From an uncultured Eubacterium sp. (GTDB taxonomy: Bacteria; Bacillota; Clostridia; Oscillospirales; Acutalibacteraceae), in assembly GCA_945980015.1 (NCBI GenBank), contig CAMFQI010000015.1, positions 1 through 10,251 on the forward strand: a DNA stretch of 10,251 nucleotides, read 5' to 3'. The translations under genes and the position numbers were made by a program. Positions 1 through 10,107 of this stretch are shown piece after piece. Numbering within the stretch: the first letter of the stretch is position 1; the number at the start of each line of letters is the position of its first letter. The notes beneath the pieces were generated by a model. The model saw nothing but the letters and a program-made list of their open reading frames with translations. It was not told the origin of the DNA and did not search any database.

Positions 1-3000
1 TGCAAATCTGCCGAATACTCCCATACACCGTTTTCCCAAGTACCGTAGGTCATTAAACTTTGTTGCTCGATATTATATGTGCCGTCGGTATTGTACTGCG
101 CAACGTAGCCCAGATCCTCGCTGAACGCTTCGATATATTCATCACCGTTGCCGTAAACAAACTGCGCCGCATTTTCTCTGCAATATTCGTCGGCGGTTGA
201 ATTAATTCCGCTGATAATCGTAAGAACAGGATAGTTCTTGTTGCTGAAATTCGTTTCAAAAGCGTTCGTCAGGTTAACATTGTGCTTTGCGATAACGGCG
301 TATTTAAGGTTGCGGCAACCGTCAAAGGCGTAGCTTCCGATATAGCTTACCTTGTTGCCCAAAACGACTGTTTTAAGTCCGTAGCAATAGTTGAACGCAT
401 ATTCCTCTATCGTTTCCAAATTCTTCGGTGCAAGGAAATATTCGAGGTCGTCACAGTTGTAAAATGCACCTGTTTTAATTACCCTCAGTGCACCGTCATT
501 ATCAATATTAACAGTCTTCAAATTTCCGCATTTATAAAACATCTCCGTCGGTATAACCTCAACGCCGCTATCAACCGTAACCTCAGTAAGATTGTTGCAC
601 AGTTCAAAGCAGCTGTCACCGTATTCTATGTAGTCGTACATATGAACACTCGTTATACCTGTGTATCTAAATGCATTGGCACCTATTGCGGTTATTTGTT
701 CAATGTTGAAATCTCTTTCCAAGCCGTCGTATTTATTACAGCTTTCAAATGCCGATTTGCCAATCGTTGTAACAAGCGGAACACTAACGCCCTCAAGTCT
801 TGTACAATCTCTAAATGCGTTTTCAGGTAAATATGTCATTTTCGGCATTGAAGCAGATTGCAGATAATTACAATTCAAAAATGCACCTTTGCCCATTCTC
901 ATCATATTAGGCAAACTGACATTTACAATCGCACTGCAATATGCAAACGCATTAACGCCGACCTCGACAATATTATCAAGGTTAATGCTATCAAGCACCT
1001 TGCAACCGTAAAAACAGTTATCCGGTATCGCACTAATGCTATCCGGCAAAACAACTGTTTTAAGACTGTTGCAATTAGCAAACGCATAATCCCCAAGCCG
1101 TTCAACAGTAGACGGTATCTCAACGCTTTCTATCTTCGTATTCGCAAACATATATGCGCCAAGCGTTTTGACATTGCCGAAATCAACTTTTGTTATCGGG
1201 CAATATCTAAACAACTGACTGCCGAAAAATGTATCGGGAGAAAATCCTGTAAGGTCAATCTCCGTATACTTTGCACCGTAAAGCGACGAAGTTCCGAAAT
1301 GCGTTACACTCTTCGGGAAATTGAAGTCCTCAAATCTGTTATCGTAAAATGCGAAATCACCGACATATTCAAGCGCCGAATCACCGGGGAAATAAGCCTG
1401 CTTAAGTTGACAGCCGTAAAACGCTCTTTGGTCAATCATTGTAAGCCCCGAGCCAAATTCAACCGTGTCAATCTTTGCGTTATAAAATGTATCTTGACCT
1501 ATCGCAGTCAGCGAATCGGGAAGTGAGAGAGTTCCGATTTGCTTGGAATTGCCTATATTTGACGACGATGAAATCGAGGTAATACCCTCGCCGATAACGA
1601 CGTCGACCTTTTGAGAGTCGCTCTTGCCTAAGACAACGGCAAAGCTCGTAGCCGATGTGCCGTCGCTGTTTTTAACATTACTGCTGACAAGCTCGCCTGT
1701 GCCGTTGATATAAAGCACGGTCTTGTCGTAGTTGTACTCCCATGTGCCGTTTTTCCATGTACCTGAGCTTGTGCCCTTTTCGTCCTCTTCCTGAATGAGT
1801 GCTTCAAGCTCGTCACTCAAGTCGCCGCTTCCCTTTGCCTTAAACTCAAGGTCGTTACTGCGTGCATATTTATATGCGGTTGAGCCGTTTGCACCGTACA
1901 AAACGGGATTTGAATTTTTGAACATTCTTGCGCCTGCGCTGAAATAGAATTTTGTAAACACAACCCTTTCAAGCGAGGTACAGTTTGCAAACGCCTCCGC
2001 TCCGACAGTCGAAACATACGGATAAACGATAACCTCTTTAAGCGAGGTGCAACCGTCAAAGGTATTGTCGGGGATAAATGTCACATGTTCATCCATTGTT
2101 GCACTCGTCAGCCTTGTACAGTTGCTGAACGCACCTTTGCCGTAGCTTGTGCCGGCTTTCATATGTACTTGTCTTATACCGCTGTTTTGGAACGCCCATT
2201 CGCCCACCGACGTTACGCTGTCGGGAATTGCGGAAAACTCGGTATCCGAACAATTTATAAATGCTCCGGTTCCAATAGTTGTCAGATTATCTCCGAAAGT
2301 AACCTCTTTAAGCGATGTTGCATTATAAAATGCCTGATAACCTATCGAAGTTACATTAGGAGCATTAAAAGACTCAATTCCACCGTTTTTGAATGCATAT
2401 CTTCCGATACTTGTAATATTGCCGAAATCAAATTCGGTCAGCTTGTATGTATTTGAAAATGTATTGTCATTTATAACGGTAATTTTAGGAATGTTAACGC
2501 TTTCAAGACTATGACAACTTATAAACGCATAATCGCCGATATATGTACAATTCGGCACATCAACGCTTACGAGATTTGTACATCCTCGAAATGCGCCCCA
2601 GCCCAGCTCCAAAATGGTTTCGCTGCTGACCTGCGATATCGAAGTGTCTTCAAATGCAGAATCACAGACATACTCAACATTGCTGAAATCGAAGCCGTCA
2701 AGCAACGAACAGTTATAAAATGCGTCAGATGAAATATATGTACAGTTCGGAATACTAACGCTCGAAAGATTCGTACAATCCATAAATGCACCATCGCCGA
2801 GCTCCGTCACCTTTTCTGCCTCAACGCTCGTAAGTCCCGTGTTTTCAAATGCACTGCTGCCGATAGACACGATATTACCGAAATCGAAGCTTTCAAGCGA
2901 GTAGCAGCTATAAAAAGCGGACGGACCGACTTTCGTAATTTTGTCCGTAAGCGTAACGCTTGTAAGATTTCCACAGCCTGTAAAGAACTGCTCGGGAACG

Positions 3001-3689
3001 GTGTCGCCGTCAAAATAGCACTCGTTAAAATCGAACGAGGTAATTGCGGTTTCGGCAAACGGAGCATAGTGATACTCAATCCTAGTATCTCTCGGCTCAA
3101 AGCTGATGCTTTCAAGCTTGGGACTGCTAAAGGCAAAGTCGTTTAGCTTCTTTACCGAAGCAGGTATTGTAATCTCGGTAATTTCGGTGCTTGCAAAAGC
3201 AGAATAACCGATTTCCTCAACACCGCTCGGAAGCGTAACGCTTTCAACCGAGGATTCGGAAAATGTATAGTCGCCGATAAATCTCAATACCGAGCCTTCC
3301 TCAAACTCAACGGTTTTCAGGCTTGGATAATATTCTCTGATACACTCGATATCGACAATTTCTTCAACATTTTTGCCGAAAACCAAATGCTCAAACCCTG
3401 TGTAGCAATAAAGGATACCGCCGCCGTTTTGCAAGGAATAAGCCGGCAAATAGGGGTGTTGACCGTTTGACGAGTTATAGCCCTTTATTACCTTTGCGTC
3501 AAGATAAAGCGTTTTTGTTGCGCTGTCGTAATTCCAGGTGCAGTTTTCATTTTTGCCCGACGCGGAAACATTCGACGTTTGGTGCGGGAATGAAGACGCA
3601 AGCGTTGTTATCGGTAAACACGACATAACAAGAATTACACAAAGTAAAACGCTGATTGCTCTATTTATATATTTCAAAGTCTTTTTCAT
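1..3689 (-). CDS. Giant secreted BspA-like leucine-rich repeat (LRR_5) protein, partial: C-terminus beyond the window
   Basis: The frame is open from the ATG at 3689 to base 1: 1229 codons with no stop, so the 3' end lies outside. Residues 1-31 are a signal peptide (MKKTLKYINR start, hydrophobic core, likely cut after TLA31). Residue 52 onward holds a W-x-Y...LYL cap, followed by about twenty LRR_5 units of 20-24 residues (I/V-x-x-I-G-x-x-A-F-x-x-C-x-x-L) to about 590. A closing cap with VLYG and STAYKYA follows at about 595-617. A second opening cap is at W645/W650 (LYINGTGEL), a second array of about nineteen units ends near 1150, and a second closing cap has NSTADEYC. A third opening cap (W1218/W1223) is cut by the window edge. 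Known BspA-like proteins are surface adhesins or cell-contact proteins; adhesion here is inferred. No wall anchor is visible. It is the third gene of the sigma/membrane-sensor operon, 14 bases after its neighbour. Confidence 0.9.
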   Translation of the reverse strand, partial: MKKTLKYINRAISVLLCVILVMSCLPITTLASSFPHQTSNVSASGKNENCTWNYDSATKTLYLDAKVIKGYNSSNGQHPYLPAYSLQNGGGILYCYTGFEHLVFGKNVEEIVDIECIREYYPSLKTVEFEEGSVLRFIGDYTFSESSVESVTLPSGVEEIGYSAFASTEITEITIPASVKKLNDFAFSSPKLESISFEPRDTRIEYHYAPFAETAITSFDFNECYFDGDTVPEQFFTGCGNLTSVTLTDKITKVGPSAFYSCYSLESFDFGNIVSIGSSAFENTGLTSVEAEKVTELGDGAFMDCTNLSSVSIPNCTYISSDAFYNCSLLDGFDFSNVEYVCDSAFEDTSISQVSSETILELGWGAFRGCTNLVSVDVPNCTYIGDYAFISCHSLESVNIPKITVINDNTFSNTYKLTEFDFGNITSIGRYAFKNGGIESFNAPNVTSIGYQAFYNATSLKEVTFGDNLTTIGTGAFINCSDTEFSAIPDSVTSVGEWAFQNSGIRQVHMKAGTSYGKGAFSNCTRLTSATMDEHVTFIPDNTFDGCTSLKEVIVYPYVSTVGAEAFANCTSLERVVFTKFYFSAGARMFKNSNPVLYGANGSTAYKYARSNDLEFKAKGSGDLSDELEALIQEEDEKGTSSGTWKNGTWEYNYDKTVLYINGTGELVSSNVKNSDGTSATSFAVVLGKSDSQKVDVVIGEGITSISSSSNIGNSKQIGTLSLPDSLTAIGQDTFYNAKIDTVEFGSGLTMIDQRAFYGCQLKQAYFPGDSALEYVGDFAFYDNRFEDFNFPKSVTHFGTSSLYGAKYTEIDLTGFSPDTFFGSQLFRYCPITKVDFGNVKTLGAYMFANTKIESVEIPSTVERLGDYAFANCNSLKTVVLPDSISAIPDNCFYGCKVLDSINLDNIVEVGVNAFAYCSAIVNVSLPNMMRMGKGAFLNCNYLQSASMPKMTYLPENAFRDCTRLEGVSVPLVTTIGKSAFESCNKYDGLERDFNIEQITAIGANAFRYTGITSVHMYDYIEYGDSCFELCNNLTEVTVDSGVEVIPTEMFYKCGNLKTVNIDNDGALRVIKTGAFYNCDDLEYFLAPKNLETIEEYAFNYCYGLKTVVLGNKVSYIGSYAFDGCRNLKYAVIAKHNVNLTNAFETNFSNKNYPVLTIISGINSTADEYCRENAAQFVYGNGDEYIEAFSEDLGYVAQYNTDGTYNIEQQSLMTYGTWENGVWEYSADL
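2499..2888 (-). repeat. Tandem 65-residue duplication inside the giant LRR protein
   Basis: Two consecutive 195-base units (2888-2694 and 2693-2499; residues about 268-332 and 333-397) each encode a block of three LRR_5 units. Both start with FDF(G/S)N and contain EL-G-x-GAF-x-x-CTNL and then PNCTYI. By eye 33 of 65 residues are identical without gaps. A third FDFGN(I)TSIG start follows 22 residues after the second unit, so the block may once have been repeated further. This is a super-repeat above the basic LRR period and suggests that the array grew by duplicating three-unit blocks. Confidence 0.75.
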
Positions 3690-3697
3690 TGCTTTTT

Positions 3698-3704
3698 CTC
3701 CTTT
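3698..3704 (-). promoter_or_regulatory. Ribosome binding site of the giant LRR gene
   Basis: AAAGGAG lies 8 bases before the ATG at 3689 and overlaps the last base of the TGA stop of the upstream membrane protein (3704-3706). It fixes the start of the giant gene and suggests translational coupling to the gene before it. Confidence 0.85.
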
Positions 3705-5638
3705 CACAGCTCTTCCTCAGGCGGTAATATATTGCCATTTTTGTCGTGAGCCGTATACGAAATAGAATTTTCATTTGCGTAATTATGCATTTTTGAGCCG
3801 TAAAGCACATTCATATGAAGCTTTTTGCCCGGATAAAACGCTAGTGTTCCTATTTCTTCGACATATTCCGCACCCGAAACAGATGTAAGCCTGCTTGTAT
3901 AAAATGCGTAGTCGCCGATATATTTCACAGAATTAGGTAGCTTGAGAGCAGTAATCATAGTACTCATAAAAGCGTAATCTTCGATTCTCTCAACCCCGCC
4001 ATCAACCGTAAGCTCCTTTATTCTTGCGCCCTTGAAGGCAGAATACGAAACGCTCTTGATGTTCGACGTTATATGAACGCTTATGATGTTGTAGCACATC
4101 ATAAATGCGCCGTCGCCGATATGCTCCATATGGTCTATGTCATTGATAACAACGGTGTTGCAATATGCAAACGCATAATCACCGACGTAGCAAAGCCTGT
4201 CAAGAGGGCTGTCAACAGTCATTTCGCTGTCGTCATAAAATGCGAAATCACCTACTCGCCTGATATTCTGCGAGCCGTATACATCCTCTAGCAAATAACA
4301 CTCGTTGAACGCAAGGCGACCTATCGTTTCGACATTGCCGCCGAGGTTAATCTTCTTCAACGCCTCACAGCCGTTAAATGCGTAGTCGCCGATTGACTTT
4401 GTATTGCTTGATAGCTTAATATTCTCTACTGCGGTTTTTTCAAACGCCCTGTTTTCAACAACGCTTACATTCGGTATATCAACCGTCTTGAGCTTCGTGC
4501 AATTTGCAAACGCACCTGCTCCGACCTTTCTTAAGCTCGTAGACGAAAACGCTTTTATATTCCTGCCCTCAAACACGCCGTTTTCAATCGACACAACAGG
4601 CTTACTATCCACGCTGTCAAGCACGATATTATCCTCGTTGCCGCTATACGCCGTAATGTATGCGCCCTCGTCTGTCAAGAGGTATTCGTATTCGCCATTC
4701 GTACAAATCTCGCTATACCTCGTTTCCTCATTCGGTCTGACGGTCACATCAATCTCAACAACCGTATTTAGATATACGAGCTTAACAACGTAATTCCCTG
4801 TTTTAGTCGTATCAATATTTGCCGTCCTGTCGCAGCTTGAATAATCAAGCTCACGCCGACTGCCGTCACTGTAAACGCGGTAAAGCTCCAAGCCGTCATA
4901 CGAAAACGTCTCACCGTATATATAATTCGTTTTCATATTGCTACTGTCCAAATAAACGCCTACAAGCGTTTTACCGGCCTCCTGCGGCAGCTCAACGCCT
5001 GACGGCACACTCGGTATAACAACCTTGTTCGGGCGCTTTCCGAAGTCTTTAATTACACCGCTTTCTGTTTTTTCCTCAAACGACGTATTATTAGACGCTT
5101 GTGTTGAGCCTGCATTTTTATTTGCGGCTTTATTTTCGTTTTCCAAAGGCTCGTCGGCATTTTCGCTAACCTGCTCAAAATCCTCGTTTTCGCTTTGAAC
5201 ATAGGTGTTGTCTTCAAGCTTTTCGTATTTATCGTTACTAAATATTGAAACAATTTTTTTGTTTAGCTCGCCCAAAATATCGTAGTCGGTTATTGCCTTT
5301 ACGGTTGCATTAACCGTTATGGTGCCTGTTGCAACAATAGCCGCAACAACCGCCGCACGTGCAAAAACGTTGAGCCTCTTGAACCAACCCTTGTTTTCAG
5401 GCGCAATTCTTTTTAGAAATTCATCACTCGTAATAAGCGGAACAAACACACGAAAATCGCTGTTTTCCTCTTGCTCGAGCTTCAATACCAAATCTATACA
5501 TTCCTCAACAAGTGATGTATTAACTTGACTTACATCCTTGTCAAGCTCTCTGTCGATTACGGCATTGAGAAGCGATATTAAATTTTCGTTTTTAATATTT
5601 GACATTACACGGCAGTCAAGTCTGATATTTGTCATCAT
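3704..5638 (-). CDS. Single-pass membrane protein with anti-sigma-like cytoplasmic head, Big_3-like Ig domain and LRR_5 ectodomain
   Basis: The 644-residue product has a charged soluble head (about 1-89), one hydrophobic segment (about 91-112, Ala/Val/Ile/Thr rich), an acidic Asn/Glu-rich linker (about 135-200), a Big_3-like Ig domain (about 222-301; YGETFSYDGL, YSDGS, GNYVVKLVY) and LRR_5 repeats (about 315-605: GAFANC, DYAFNGC, LAFNEC, DGAFMMC and others). A closing cap with VLYGSK and YANENSISY matches the giant neighbour's module ends. There is no N-terminal signal peptide, so topology should be N-in, C-out. Directly downstream of an ECF sigma gene, the head is best read as the anti-sigma domain; no HxxxCxxC zinc motif is seen. 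The ectodomain would sense an outside signal. The second ATG (5635) has better ribosome-site spacing (6 against 3 bases), so the true protein may be 643 residues. LRR fold and topology are sure; the anti-sigma role is inferred from position. Confidence 0.85.
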   Translation of the reverse strand: MMTNIRLDCRVMSNIKNENLISLLNAVIDRELDKDVSQVNTSLVEECIDLVLKLEQEENSDFRVFVPLITSDEFLKRIAPENKGWFKRLNVFARAAVVAAIVATGTITVNATVKAITDYDILGELNKKIVSIFSNDKYEKLEDNTYVQSENEDFEQVSENADEPLENENKAANKNAGSTQASNNTSFEEKTESGVIKDFGKRPNKVVIPSVPSGVELPQEAGKTLVGVYLDSSNMKTNYIYGETFSYDGLELYRVYSDGSRRELDYSSCDRTANIDTTKTGNYVVKLVYLNTVVEIDVTVRPNEETRYSEICTNGEYEYLLTDEGAYITAYSGNEDNIVLDSVDSKPVVSIENGVFEGRNIKAFSSTSLRKVGAGAFANCTKLKTVDIPNVSVVENRAFEKTAVENIKLSSNTKSIGDYAFNGCEALKKINLGGNVETIGRLAFNECYLLEDVYGSQNIRRVGDFAFYDDSEMTVDSPLDRLCYVGDYAFAYCNTVVINDIDHMEHIGDGAFMMCYNIISVHITSNIKSVSYSAFKGARIKELTVDGGVERIEDYAFMSTMITALKLPNSVKYIGDYAFYTSRLTSVSGAEYVEEIGTLAFYPGKKLHMNVLYGSKMHNYANENSISYTAHDKNGNILPPEEEL

Positions 5639-5641
5639 TTT

Positions 5642-5649
5642 TCCTTTCC
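5642..5649 (-). promoter_or_regulatory. Ribosome binding site of the membrane LRR sensor gene
   Basis: GGAAAGGA precedes two adjacent ATG codons. The spacing is only 3 bases to the first (5638) and 6 bases to the second (5635), which favours the second as the real start. It lies in the 25-base gap after the sigma factor stop. Confidence 0.6.
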
Positions 5650-5663
5650 GAAAAATAAAAGGG

Positions 5664-6188
5664 TTACGAGCTGAAATAATCCCTTGGGAATATTTTTCTT
5701 AATTTTTGTCTTATACGGCTAAGCTCCGTATATACCGCCGAGATATTCCTGTTTTGAATATCTGCGATAGCGTCCGCCGTCAGCTCGTCTATGTATCGAA
5801 GCTTAAAGGTTTCGGCTTCTCGGTCGCTCAAGGCGGCGCTGATTTCTATTGAATACTGCTCAAAGGTCAATCTGTCGTCTATATCCTCGCTTTGAGACGG
5901 AATATGTATTACTTCGTTTATATTAACTACGTCCTGCTGTTTTTCTAGCTGACGAAGTTGCTTCAAAATGTAGTATCGCGCGGTTTGAAGAAGAAAAGCA
6001 TAAGCGTTTTCTATCTTCTCACCGTCGCAATACTTTTTATAGAGGACTACAAAAGCTTCTTGGGTGCAATCCTCGGCAGACGCTCTGTCATTGGGTAAAC
6101 GTGACAAACAAAATCTGTAAACACCTGAATAATACCTGTCAAACGCCTGCTTGAACACTTCTTTGGCATTATTTTGTTTTTTATCCAC
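5664..6188 (-). CDS. ECF-type RNA polymerase sigma factor (sigma-70 family)
   Basis: The 174-residue product has the two domains of an ECF sigma factor and nothing else. Region 2 is at about 15-82 (YYSGVYRFCLSRL, then AEDCTQEAFVVLYKK, which matches the core-binding 2.2 helix, and the -10-recognising part AYAFLLQTARYYILKQLR). Region 4 is at about 114-168 (LSDREAETFKLRY, then ISAVYTELSRIRQKLRKI, a helix-turn-helix of the -35-binding type). It should direct RNA polymerase to a small set of promoters in response to its partner. The start is GTG at 6188, with AAAGGGGG 11 bases upstream (6200-6207); a nearer ATG at 6195 is out of frame and stops after four codons. It heads the minus-strand operon with the membrane LRR sensor and the giant LRR protein, so those are its likely partner and target. 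The stop is TAA. Confidence 0.92.
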   Translation of the reverse strand: MDKKQNNAKEVFKQAFDRYYSGVYRFCLSRLPNDRASAEDCTQEAFVVLYKKYCDGEKIENAYAFLLQTARYYILKQLRQLEKQQDVVNINEVIHIPSQSEDIDDRLTFEQYSIEISAALSDREAETFKLRYIDELTADAIADIQNRNISAVYTELSRIRQKLRKIFPRDYFSS

Positions 6189-6240: not shown

Positions 6241-6287
6241 AGACTGCAAAATTTCTGTTGCTTTGAAGCAGTCTCTACTATATAGTA
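6241..6287. promoter_or_regulatory. Palindromes in the divergent intergenic region, near the start of the sigma operon
   Basis: AGACTGC (6241-6247) and GCAGTCT (6268-6274) form a perfect 7-bp inverted repeat with a 20-base spacer. TACTATATAGTA (6276-6287) is a perfect 12-base palindrome right beside it. TATAGT occurs on both strands within the palindrome; on the plus strand TTGCTT (6258-6263) lies 17 bases before it, a passable sigma-70 promoter. Any of these could be an operator or promoter for the minus-strand sigma operon or the plus-strand hydrolase. The structure is plain; the function is a guess. Confidence 0.4.
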
Positions 6288-6336
6288 CCATAACTCGCCC
6301 AAAACCTTACAGGATTTTGCAAATTTTTTTATTTTT

Positions 6337-7146: not shown

Positions 7147-8160
7147 TTATTTAATCGGCTCAACCTCGAAGGAATATTCAAGCGGACAGGTGTAGCCGAA
7201 TTTTATTTGATGCTCCTTTGACGGAATAGGTCCGCAGCTTCCCGAACCGGTACCTCTTACAAAGCCGTCAACGGCAGTAAAGGTTGTTTCGGTATCGGGC
7301 AAATCCTCGATATGCTTTGCTGTTTTAAGCTGACCGAGAGTGAAGTGATTTGCATTAAAGCTAAACGGCTTTTCGATATGTGAAAATCTTAAGCCGACGC
7401 CGTTTTCATCTGTAACAACGCTGTATCTCACATCTCCTCGGTTGCCCGAATCCTGCGGCTTAATGTACTTATGAGCCATTTTGCCGACCGTGGTTTTATA
7501 AGCTCCGATAGGCGAATGCTCCTTAAAATCGGAATAGTTTTCGACAGGTCCTCTGCCGTAGTATTCTACATTCTCAAATTCGCAGGGCATTTCAAGATGA
7601 ACGCCGAAGCGCGGAAGCTGGTCGGTAAGCGGAAAAACCTTTTTGAGCGAAATATCAATACGCATTTTGCCCGTTTTTTCAAAGAAATAGTTAACCTGCG
7701 CCCTTGCAAGAACAACAACGCCCCTTGTGACAAAATCGTAAACGGTGCTTACACATTGCTCACCGCCTATATTTTTCACCTCACAGGAAACGAGCTTTGC
7801 ATTTGAGCAGTCAAGACCGATAATTTTCCAGAATATAACCATATACTGATCGTTGTCTAGTCTGCCTCTGTAAATATGCGGAACGAAGCCGCCTTGAGCG
7901 TCAAGCGGTGCGGTGTTCAAATACTGCGTGCCGTCAACCTCGTAGCTTACAAGTCCCTCGTTCTTGTCAAATACGGCGTTGCCGTTATCAAACCGAACGG
8001 TAATAATGCCATCGCCGTTCTCGATGTCAGCGCTTGCACAAATTCTGTTTTCGTAAGGCTTCGCAAGAGAAACAATGACCTGCTCAACTGCAATTTCCCT
8101 ATCGGAAGCCTTATCGGTATAGATAAAGTTAACGAATACATCGCTGTCGGATTTTGACAA
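7147..8160 (-). CDS. lacZ: Beta-galactosidase (GH2), C-terminal part: rest of domain 4 and the small-chain domain 5, cut off by an in-frame TAG
   Basis: The frame is the same as that of the upstream piece; only TAG 8176-8178 divides them. Counted from TTG 8160 it has 337 residues. Residues 7-31 (DVFVNFIYTD...) look like the last strands of LacZ domain 4. About 40-337 is the Bgal_small_N domain: FDKNEGLVSY, RGRLDND, RFGVHLE, YYGRGPVENYSD, then KYIKPQDSGNRGDVRY, all matching conserved E. coli LacZ stretches. Near the C-terminus GSGSCGP stands where E. coli has GDDSW, so the Trp999 position is Cys. TTG 8160 has no visible ribosome site, so independent translation is doubtful; it would need readthrough or reinitiation after the TAG. 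LacM of lactobacilli is a natural free subunit of this kind and similar length. If the stop is real and tight, this is the dead 3' end of a pseudogene. Confidence 0.8.
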   Translation of the reverse strand: MSKSDSDVFVNFIYTDKASDREIAVEQVIVSLAKPYENRICASADIENGDGIITVRFDNGNAVFDKNEGLVSYEVDGTQYLNTAPLDAQGGFVPHIYRGRLDNDQYMVIFWKIIGLDCSNAKLVSCEVKNIGGEQCVSTVYDFVTRGVVVLARAQVNYFFEKTGKMRIDISLKKVFPLTDQLPRFGVHLEMPCEFENVEYYGRGPVENYSDFKEHSPIGAYKTTVGKMAHKYIKPQDSGNRGDVRYSVVTDENGVGLRFSHIEKPFSFNANHFTLGQLKTAKHIEDLPDTETTFTAVDGFVRGTGSGSCGPIPSKEHQIKFGYTCPLEYSFEVEPIK

Positions 8161-8175
8161 AACAGGCGAATTAAT

Positions 8176-8178
8176 CTA
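8176..8178 (-). other. In-frame TAG stop interrupting the beta-galactosidase gene
   Basis: The codons read ...R-K-K-I-TAG-I-N-S-P-V-L..., and both sides are in the same frame with no missing sequence. Alignment from memory with E. coli LacZ (VAPQGKQLIELPEL) puts a Glu at this place, so GAG to TAG by one base change is the simplest origin. The complete genes visible here end in TAA (three) or TGA (one); no other TAG terminates or interrupts a gene, so the window neither supports nor excludes amber recoding. Confidence 0.85.
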
Positions 8179-10107
8179 AATTTTCTTTCTCGTTTGAGGT
8201 GCGATTACCGACTTGATTTTTCCTGAAGCCGCAACGCTGCCGTTATCAATTATCTCATACGAAATTTCGATATCCGAGCTATCCTTGAAGCATCTTGTGT
8301 TTTTCAGCTCAAAGGTGTTGCTTCCTATATACTGCGCTCTTATCGGACGGTAGCAAACCTTCATTTCAAGCGCGCCGCTTGACGGCTTGCGGTCGGGATA
8401 AAAAAGACCGTCAACACAGAAATTTCCGTCGTGGATAGGCTCGTTGTGGTCGCCGCCATAGGTCCATTTGTACCTTGCGTTTTCGTCATACACGCCGTGG
8501 TCCGCCCATTCCCAAATGCAACCGCCCATAAACTGCTTCGAGGAATAGAAAAGCTCCATATATTCCTCAAGTCCACCCGGACCGTTGCCCATTGCATGCG
8601 CATATTCGCATTGGAAAAACGGCTTGCCCTTGTACTTATTTCCTGCAGTTCCCTTTCGGATTTTCCTCATCAAATCCTGAGTAGCATACATTCTCGAAAC
8701 AACGTCGTACGCCCAACGCTTACTGCGGTTAACACCCTCGTAATGAACGGGAATTTCGGGATTTGCCTTTTTCAGAAAATCGTAGCAGACGTCCTGACAT
8801 TTGTAGCCGCCCGACTCGTTGCCGAGACTCCACATTGTGATTGACGGGTGATTTTTATCACGCTCGTACATTCTTTGCACTCTGTCGAGATAGTGCGAAG
8901 CCCACGTAATATCGTTGCTCAATCTGTTAGGATTATACGTACTGTGAGGTACTGCATAAAAGCCGTGAGTTTCGATATCCGCCTCATCAACAACATAAAG
9001 TCCGTACATATCGCACATAGTGAGAAATACAGGATCGGGAGGATAATGAGAGGTACGAACGGAGTTGCAGTTGTACTCCTTCATCAGCTTAATATCAAGC
9101 TCCAAATCATCAAGCGAAACGGCATAGCCCTTTGTCATATGTGTGTCGTGATGATTAACGCCGAGCATTTTTATCGGCTTTTCATTAAAGAGAAATACCT
9201 CGCCGTCGATTTTTATATCCTTGAAGCCAATGTAGGTACGAATAGCCTCAACATCTTTTATTTTGATTGTAACTTCATAGAGATTTGGTGTTTCGGCCGT
9301 CCATTCATTTACTTTAAGATTTTTTATAATTGTGTTGCTTTCATTTGTTGTGAATAGGTCACAGTAAATGTCAACATCATCAAAATTGCCATCAATTTTT
9401 ATTTTCAAATCATAAGTGCCGTCAGCATTTTTGCTAGGTCTGAAAAGAAAATCGTCAATGTGCTTTTCCTCTTGATTGATGATATAAACATCACGGAAAA
9501 TGCCGTTTTCCCTAAACATATCCTGACATTCGAGATATGTGCCGTTGCACCATTTGTAGTTCACAACAAGAATTTCGTTTTCGCCGTCAATCAAAAAATC
9601 GGTTATATCAAACTCAGCGGTATTGTGCGAGCCCTCGGAATAGCCGACGTATTTTGAATTTACATAAAGTGTAAACGCTCCTGCCACGCCGAGAAATGAG
9701 ATAATCTGTCGGTATGACTTTTTGAGTGCTACGGATTTTCTGTAAATTCCTACAGCCACGTCCTCGGGAATATGAGGCGGCTTTTTCGGAAACGGATAAC
9801 GGGTGTTGATATACGCAATTTGGTCGTAGCCGTTTCTCTGCCAGGTTGACGGAACGTTGAGTTTATCAAACGATGTGTTGTCCGTATCAAGCGTGTTTGG
9901 AATTTCGCTCAGCTTTTCGTAATACAAAAAATCCCATTCTCCGCTTAAAACAGTCACTCTGTCGGAATTGTAACGCTCGTTTTTGTAATCGGTTTTTTCA
10001 AATGCGTTCTCACGGGAAAACGGAATAAAATACGTCCTTGCAGGAAGCTTGTTTTCCTCAAAAACAGAAAATTCGGCGTGAATTTTTTTATTTATGTTAT
10101 ACTTCAT
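8176..10107 (-). CDS. lacZ: Beta-galactosidase (GH2), N-terminal and catalytic part, ended by a premature TAG
   Basis: The 643-residue piece holds the sugar-binding jelly-roll (about 35-212: LSGEWDF, VPSTWQRNGYDQIAY, GVAGAFTLYVNSKYVGYS), the first Ig-like domain (about 213-296), the TIM barrel (about 300-590) and the first strands of domain 4. Both catalytic glutamates are there: the acid/base in SLGNESG (Glu431) and the nucleophile in CEYAHAMGN (Glu501), with the substrate-site stretches MLGVNHHDTH, RTSHYPPDP and DEADIETHG. The enzyme hydrolyses terminal beta-galactosides such as lactose in the cytoplasm; no signal peptide is seen. E. coli LacZ is 1023 residues; this piece plus the downstream one gives about 986. 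The ATG at 10107 has AGGT 6 bases upstream. LacL of lactobacilli is a similar free large subunit, so partial function with the downstream piece is possible, but a nonsense-mutated gene is likelier. Confidence 0.9.
   Translation of the reverse strand: MKYNINKKIHAEFSVFEENKLPARTYFIPFSRENAFEKTDYKNERYNSDRVTVLSGEWDFLYYEKLSEIPNTLDTDNTSFDKLNVPSTWQRNGYDQIAYINTRYPFPKKPPHIPEDVAVGIYRKSVALKKSYRQIISFLGVAGAFTLYVNSKYVGYSEGSHNTAEFDITDFLIDGENEILVVNYKWCNGTYLECQDMFRENGIFRDVYIINQEEKHIDDFLFRPSKNADGTYDLKIKIDGNFDDVDIYCDLFTTNESNTIIKNLKVNEWTAETPNLYEVTIKIKDVEAIRTYIGFKDIKIDGEVFLFNEKPIKMLGVNHHDTHMTKGYAVSLDDLELDIKLMKEYNCNSVRTSHYPPDPVFLTMCDMYGLYVVDEADIETHGFYAVPHSTYNPNRLSNDITWASHYLDRVQRMYERDKNHPSITMWSLGNESGGYKCQDVCYDFLKKANPEIPVHYEGVNRSKRWAYDVVSRMYATQDLMRKIRKGTAGNKYKGKPFFQCEYAHAMGNGPGGLEEYMELFYSSKQFMGGCIWEWADHGVYDENARYKWTYGGDHNEPIHDGNFCVDGLFYPDRKPSSGALEMKVCYRPIRAQYIGSNTFELKNTRCFKDSSDIEISYEIIDNGSVAASGKIKSVIAPQTRKKI

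Follow-up and report, generated by a model that had tools for sequence, protein, structure and literature searches.

In the available parts of earlier accounts, the anti-sigma factors RsiV and RsiP are cut by signal peptidase and then undergo site-2 cleavage by RasP (PMC6066255, PMC8844934); SigI/RsgI systems are encoded in an autoregulated operon, the anti-sigma factor having intracellular, transmembrane and outer sensory parts (PMC6056542); and class I anti-sigma domains form a small cytoplasmic head before the transmembrane segment, encoded next to the gene of an extracytoplasmic function (ECF) sigma factor (PMC7406223). Here we analyse a 10,251-nt stretch of DNA (the window) from an uncultured Eubacterium sp. 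of the Acutalibacteraceae, which is the entire contig C15 of the metagenome-assembled genome (MAG) G000 (1.53 Mb, 293 contigs, 74% complete) and encodes, side by side, an ECF sigma factor, a single-pass membrane protein with a leucine-rich repeat (LRR) ectodomain and a giant secreted LRR protein. Gut Clostridia commonly encode BspA-type LRR proteins and, to our knowledge, the control of their expression there is largely open. The set of sigma factor, LRR sensor and giant, together with a promoter shared by subtilase genes, suggests a dedicated surface-sensing circuit in uncultured gut Clostridia: probably a switch of ECF sigma and anti-sigma factor, autoregulated and fitted with a BspA-type LRR receptor, that controls an LRR_5-dockerin giant and, in some species, subtilases. 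Among the papers listed in searches of the open-licence PMC literature, none dealt with an anti-sigma factor with an LRR ectodomain or with such a triad.

The three genes lie on the minus strand and span window positions 6188 down to 3, with gaps of only 25 bases (sigma/sensor) and 14 bases (sensor/giant); coordinates and Pfam matches agree with the tight trio described in the original prediction, which had been made from this DNA alone. The first gene (5664..6188, GTG start) encodes a 174-aa protein above the Pfam cut-offs for PF04542 (Sigma70_r2, 34.1 bits) and PF08281 (Sigma70_r4_2, 33.6 bits), which also matches the NCBIfam model TIGR02937 sigma70-ECF (66.8 bits, cut-off 42.9). Matches to regions 2 and 4, none to region 3, and its short length mark it as an ECF sigma factor, and a profile of 16 of its relatives matched SigW in the PDB at 1.2e-16. 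The second gene (3704..5638) encodes the 644-aa single-pass sensor, a putative anti-sigma factor. Its cytoplasmic head (residues 1-85, 5384..5638) is the putative sigma-binding domain and is followed by the single hydrophobic segment of the hydropathy profile (about residues 89-116), assigned as a transmembrane helix (residues 91-117, 5288..5368) that falls in a low-confidence part of the structural model, with helices at 91-102 and 108-117. Outside lie a Big_3 immunoglobulin (Ig)-like domain (residues 234-300, 4739..4939; PF07523, 28.3 bits, cut-off 21.2) and an LRR_5 ectodomain (about residues 340-632, 3743..4621; PF13306, 177 bits), so that the predicted plan of an inner head and an outer Ig plus LRR_5 part holds. 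The model is confident from about residue 220, with a predicted local distance difference test (pLDDT) score mostly >90 in the LRR_5 part; in a Foldseek search the ectodomain resembled solved LRR_5 proteins such as 4fs7, 4gt6 and 6mlx, and the match of the sensor to the streptococcal adhesin HupY/LrrG model NF047961 was weak (73 bits, cut-off 1250). The third gene (3..3689, ATG start), cut by the contig end, encodes the N-terminal 1,229 aa of the giant, beginning with a signal-peptide-like segment (3597..3689; hydropathy and sequence) and built, as had also been predicted, from the same LRR_5 repeats as the sensor (577 bits).

This arrangement recurs in the genus. We searched 60 related genomes with the sensor and 80 genus genomes with a profile of the head, which matched 55 of the 80. 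Fifty-six head loci were examined; seven matches with E <4.2e-13 (G078, G083 twice, G089, G026, G031 and G080) and all weaker ones were left out, so the class counts are minima. Whatever the class, the head is immediately preceded by a sigma gene in 53 of the 56 loci; in the remaining three it begins within 0-140 nt of a contig end. Class I, which consists of the sigma factor, a sensor with head, transmembrane helix, Big_3 and LRR_5, and an LRR_5 dockerin giant, comprises at least 20 loci in 19 of the 80 genomes, the window included; the sigma gene adjoins the sensor in 19 of 20 and the LRR giant does so in 19 of 20, both exceptions lying at contig ends. The original prediction had named loss of gene order in relatives as grounds for abandoning it; the order is kept, and we reject a chance association of neighbouring genes. 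Class II (at least 14 loci, with sigma in 13) has sensor frames of 511-1411 aa that are not followed by an LRR giant (one contig ends 201 nt on); the three that were scanned contain Big_3 or Flg_new repeats. The sensor of class III (at least 13 loci) is short, measuring 215-233 aa in 12 loci and being cut at a contig end in one, and is followed by an LRR_5 frame, which spans 1,176-1,365 aa as far as covered in 12 loci and is split into 300, 851 and 329 aa in one. At least six loci make up class IV, again with no LRR giant and in one case with an interrupted sensor, and three further loci are undecided at contig ends. The same head domain is thus common to LRR, Flg_new/Big_3 and short sensors: the original observation was right, and the system is larger than described there.

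Beyond this set, a sensor search in a large protein collection gave 14 matches, all with LRR_5, and a GTDB scan gave 19 loci, one of them a weak LRR match and the other 18 apparently from genus members already included, which were deposited under the names Eubacterium sp., Clostridium sp., Oscillospiraceae, Ruminococcaceae or Clostridia bacterium and came in several cases from rumen or reticulum. Heads were present in 19 of 394 genomes drawn from the order, four of these being of this genus, the window genome among them. The head is therefore rare in the order outside the genus; the strongest of the 15 outside heads all come from a single other genus of the family (four genomes, E 1.8e-22 to 6.4e-19, frames of 332-390 aa). 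A broader search with short heads returned 22 proteins, none informatively named. A viral origin was rejected, one scan of viral contigs having given no confirmed relative.

Upstream of the window operon, 123 nt from the sigma start, a two-box ECF-type promoter, TGTAAGGTTTT-N12-GTACTATATAG, can be read directly (6278..6311, minus strand). In class I operons the first box is TGTAAG, or TGTGAC, TGTAAA and similar, usually with a T-rich stretch, and the second is GTACTA, GTACATACATA or a GAC variant, starting 22-23 nt from the first T. ECF -35 elements have been noted to carry a T-tract downstream of the AAC triad, in the part of that report available (PMC6056542). A position weight matrix (PWM) built from 17 class I sigma genes was scored by leave-one-out against 200 mononucleotide shuffles for each. 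Its best sites lie 48-184 nt upstream of the genes, and in 14 of the 17 none of the 200 shuffles reached the score, the window promoter (23.5) included, which is also the only strict match in its own MAG (reversed-pattern control, 0). Where an extra LRR gene leads the operon, as in two cases, the site precedes that gene, at 22.4 and 13.0 bits. Among the fetched loci the PWM at 14 bits marked one of 274 other genes and one of 52 head genes. A shared motif before these sigma genes and both LRR-led operons is what an autoregulated promoter would predict, and the comparison of non-sigma-70 promoters suggested in the original prediction thus yielded a common two-box motif, at class I operons and at subtilase genes. 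A sigma-70 promoter for the operon was rejected: the consensus scan listed no minus-strand match in the stretch immediately before the sigma gene, and its total of 25 matches was close to the shuffle mean of 21.7.

Some further features of the classes may be recorded here. Class II sensors recur at a few genomic positions (L063, L110, L114, L115 and L117; L113, L118 and L121), which we take to be near a nucleotidyltransferase-like gene or trp-like genes, and a different type of promoter often precedes their sigma genes, for example TGTCAACTTTT...GGGACTACTATATGA. One class II-like sensor (L065, 3818-7147) is broken by a stop right after the transmembrane segment, giving a 122-aa frame and then a 985-aa frame. 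Class III loci (L128, L130, L131, L133-L141) have a short sensor, often with a SPALA-like segment after the transmembrane helix, a promoter type like GACATATTT...GACTACTTTATGA and an LRR_5 protein of mostly about 1,200-1,360 aa, whose C-terminal ends vary between repeat-like YSAWSKAK ends, a hydrophobic tail, and a transmembrane segment with a basic tail. The gene beside class I loci L058, L103, L105, L108 and L203 is presumably related to the sporulation gene spoIVA.

The promoter motif extends beyond the sigma operons. The pattern TGTAAGRTTT-N12-14-GTAC, written from the sigma promoters alone and run in the 19 class I genomes, gave 16 sites in ten of them and none with the reversed control: nine before class I sigma genes, four before genes of secreted proteins later identified as subtilases, one before a secreted LRR-like protein of G060, one about 380 nt before another sigma/head pair of G002 and one not assigned to a gene. 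A second pattern, AAGTGTRA-N17-19-GTACWW, written after these sites had been seen and run in 27 genomes, gave 13 matches, of which four fell at class I sigma operons and six at subtilases, 21-152 nt before the start, and three had no clear gene nearby; the eight genomes without class I had none, and the reversed control had two. Class I sigma genes or secreted subtilases accounted for 13/16 and 10/13 matches of the two patterns, respectively. At a PWM score of at least 13 the motif stands before eight subtilase genes in five genomes (two in G007, three in G078 and one each in G008, G062 and G075), all eight with Peptidase_S8 and seven with LRR_5. Moreover, unusual TGTGAC variants specific to the species, TGTGACAAAAC in G007 and TGTGACGTTTT in G062, are found at both the sigma and the subtilase promoters.

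The motif before the subtilases might instead be read by a paralogue of the sigma factor encoded in the same genome, with the class I sigma factor controlling its own operon only. The genomes have several sigma/head pairs with related promoters, the relatedness being evident from the 22 of 51 sigma genes of all classes that the PWM marks at 14 bits or more; the strict site is single, and before the operon, in G000, G013 and G017; and the G002 site mentioned above (contig C94) precedes another pair. Yet the variant letters of the subtilase promoters in G007 and G062 are those found at the class I sigma promoter of that genome, and different boxes (TGTCAAC..., GACATATTT...) precede most sigma genes of classes II and III; we consider control by a paralogue unlikely.

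Several observations nonetheless weigh against the promoter and regulon proposed for the class I sigma factor. Three of the 17 sigma promoters are not clearly above their shuffles (L111, L054 and L108, reached by 3, 14 and 15 of 200), and L054 belongs to G007, one of the two species behind the argument from shared variants. Motif-bearing subtilases occurred in only five of the 19 class I genomes, the other 14 showing none, and one of the eight, L231, has no LRR_5 in the part covered and its motif 203 nt upstream. Leaving out two genes without a readable start, G080:C4, and two genes of G000 cut at the 5' end, a PWM score of at least 13 was found at 8, and one of at least 14 at 7, of 39 subtilase genes in class I genomes; the respective figures for genomes without class I were 1 and 0 of 24 (Fisher p 0.07 and 0.03), a modest difference. 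In the window MAG both subtilase-LRR genes (contigs C102 and C50) lack their 5' ends, and neither G013 (98% complete) nor G017 yielded a subtilase; the subtilase regulon thus rests on related species and not on that of the window. As a separate observation, two subtilase genes of G030, a genome without class I (L272 and L273), share another two-box motif, TGAAAGTTTTTTTG...TGTATATACATATATG, perhaps of another ECF regulon.

With the layout, its conservation, the promoter and its genome-wide sites established at the level of sequence, we infer that the sigma factor binds the head and reads these promoters, and that the sensor detects a ligand and is proteolysed. The sigma factor would be held at the membrane by the head of the single-pass protein, whose outer Ig and BspA-type LRR_5 part would act as the receptor. 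Contact with a ligand would lead to a cut near the outer end of the transmembrane helix, most likely by signal peptidase at an invariant [VA]NA tripeptide, and a second cut inside the membrane by a RseP/RasP-type protease would free the sigma factor, which would then transcribe its own operon from the two-box promoter, so that the LRR_5-dockerin giant is made, and in several related species also secreted subtilases, mostly with LRR_5 repeats. The tripeptide, V-N-A at residues 109-111 in the window (5306..5314), is present at the outer end of the helix in 20 of 20 class I sensors and agrees with the -3/-1 rule of signal peptidase, making it a candidate cleavage site, although it may be just structural. 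Because of this agreement, the precedent of RsiV and RsiP, and an RseP-family gene in the MAG of the window (contig C24), the sigma factor is probably released by regulated, ligand-induced two-step proteolysis.

The alignment of 16 sequences of head and transmembrane helix has nine invariant columns, seven of them within the head (L24, I28, E31, K34, C47, E55 and P67). The assignment of the head as an anti-sigma domain has to be set against a series of null results. A Pfam scan of the 16 heads gave no family for that of the window and none common to two members, a profile search against PDB chains gave no significant match, either to a solved anti-sigma domain or to any other chain, the head was modelled as helices with poor confidence (mean pLDDT 54.5), and a fold search with this low-confidence model gave no significant match. 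Distances between sigma factors correlate with those between heads (r 0.78 in class I, and reached by none of 500 label permutations within each of classes I to III), yet the head-LRR (0.81) and sigma-LRR (0.72) correlations of class I are similarly high, so that shared descent can explain the former, and we discarded coevolution as proof of sigma-head binding. That these searches tied the head to no known anti-sigma domain, by sequence or by fold, might point to a co-transcribed adhesin or scaffold, with the sigma factor controlled otherwise. However, the family head directly follows the sigma gene in all but three loci whatever the ectodomain, which is the usual position of an ECF anti-sigma factor, and a small N-terminal part, one transmembrane segment and a large outer part is the layout of RsiV or RsgI. 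We regard a mere adhesin or scaffold role as very unlikely, and prefer the head as a putative anti-sigma domain.

The giant continues beyond the window. Contig C192 of the same MAG shares 55 exact bases with window positions 1-55, inside the giant gene, and the window and C192 pieces (the latter at 247-3641 of locus L067) match residues 41-1269 and 1253-2382 of the uninterrupted ortholog frame of G013, at 95% and 97% identity. Being collinear on this one-piece frame, they give a giant of about 2,340 aa in all; an exact overlap of 55 bases at contig ends is of the type that an assembly graph leaves at a branch. The C192 piece ends with a Cys-rich region and a type I dockerin (Dockerin_1, 30.7 bits, cut-off 22.9). 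PF00404 was above its cut-off in L067, L052 and L058, the three giants with a scanned C-terminal end, and our own dockerin profile matched 18 of the 20 class I loci, the remaining two being cut by contig ends; it matched none of the 13 class III LRR_5 proteins. A sub-threshold CarboxypepD_reg match precedes the dockerin in two relatives. Neither G000 (74% complete) nor G013 (98% complete) yielded a cohesin. Cohesin matches were present in 16 of 60 genus genomes searched, with clusters in G062:C15, G025:C22, G016:C3 and G002:C1, and dockerins of the genus may therefore have partners in some congeners.

The LRR_5 repeats common to sensor and giant, whose genes stand side by side in 19 of 20 class I loci, could also mean that the sensor LRR binds the giant (or the subtilases) and reports the assembly of the cell's own surface layer, a feedback rather than a sensing of the outside. 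Yet in only 1 of 18 loci is the LRR part of a sensor most similar to its own giant, with a median rank of 9.5 of 18, and on sequence similarity the giant is unsupported as the ligand. Furthermore, the LRR giants of class III stand behind sensors that have no LRR, and both are absent from the 14 loci of class II, which indicates that the head works without an LRR-giant match. Self-monitoring thus appears quite unlikely.

Elsewhere in the window, two neighbouring minus-strand frames (7147-8160 and 8176-10107) encode the small-chain part and the GH2 part of a LacZ-type beta-galactosidase, which reflects either a two-subunit arrangement, a broken gene or an assembly error.

The locus offers a testable switch with a defined promoter, a sigma factor, a putative anti-sigma head without a Pfam family, and predicted targets including subtilases in some species. 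If the LRR_5 ectodomain is the receptor, an adhesin fold has been recruited for signalling, and its ligand could be sought by simple binding assays. More tentatively, and with considerable doubt, the whole may be a protein-targeting counterpart of cellulosome sensing, in which an ECF switch with an adhesin-type LRR receptor commands a dockerin-LRR giant and LRR-guided subtilases, its head possibly being an anti-sigma family new to Pfam and reused in the genus with at least three ectodomain types. If so, one LRR protein would let the cell detect protein or glycoprotein surfaces, be they of host, feed or a partner cell, and the response would be LRR-guided adhesion and proteolysis.

How does this system compare with those already described? 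Like RseA, RsiW, ChrR and RskA, with class I anti-sigma domains, the sensor has a small head before the transmembrane helix and its gene adjoins an ECF gene, to judge from the available parts of the literature. Set against this, the head gave no profile match, no fold match with its low-confidence model and no Hx3Cx2C zinc motif in the alignment of 16 sequences, a motif that many known class I anti-sigma domains also lack, according to the sections available (PMC7406223). With SigV/RsiV and SigP/RsiP of Bacillus and Clostridioides, as far as the accessible accounts go, it shares an ECF sigma factor and a single-pass, here putative, anti-sigma factor with an extracytoplasmic part, and here the candidate [VA]NA site and a predicted helix follow the transmembrane segment. 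The receptor here is nevertheless Ig plus LRR_5 and not a lysozyme-binding domain, the operon encodes a giant surface protein, and DUF4179 was not among the 14 families listed for the 16 heads, transmembrane helix included, at E up to 1. The analogy with SigI/RsgI of cellulolytic clostridia drawn in the original prediction stands for the layout: an operon autoregulated, here as judged from its promoter motif, and a three-part sensor, as the available descriptions have it, and also dockerin-bearing secreted targets. It does not extend to family, as no SigI model was among the NCBIfam matches listed for the sigma factor (best 25 of 66), which is ECF and not sigma-I, and no RsgI-type domain was among the matches listed for the window sensor or the 16 heads; the ectodomain is LRR_5 instead of carbohydrate-binding, the promoter is different, and the predicted targets are an LRR giant and subtilases. 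The system would operate much as SigV/RsiV or SigI/RsgI do, but since the characteristic domains of neither were among these matches, it is best called a variant of transmembrane ECF signalling. Finally, giant and sensor ectodomain are LRR_5 like the BspA-type surface proteins (for example, HupY/LrrG), from which they differ in that the giant ends in a dockerin and that LRR_5 here also forms the outer part of a membrane regulator.

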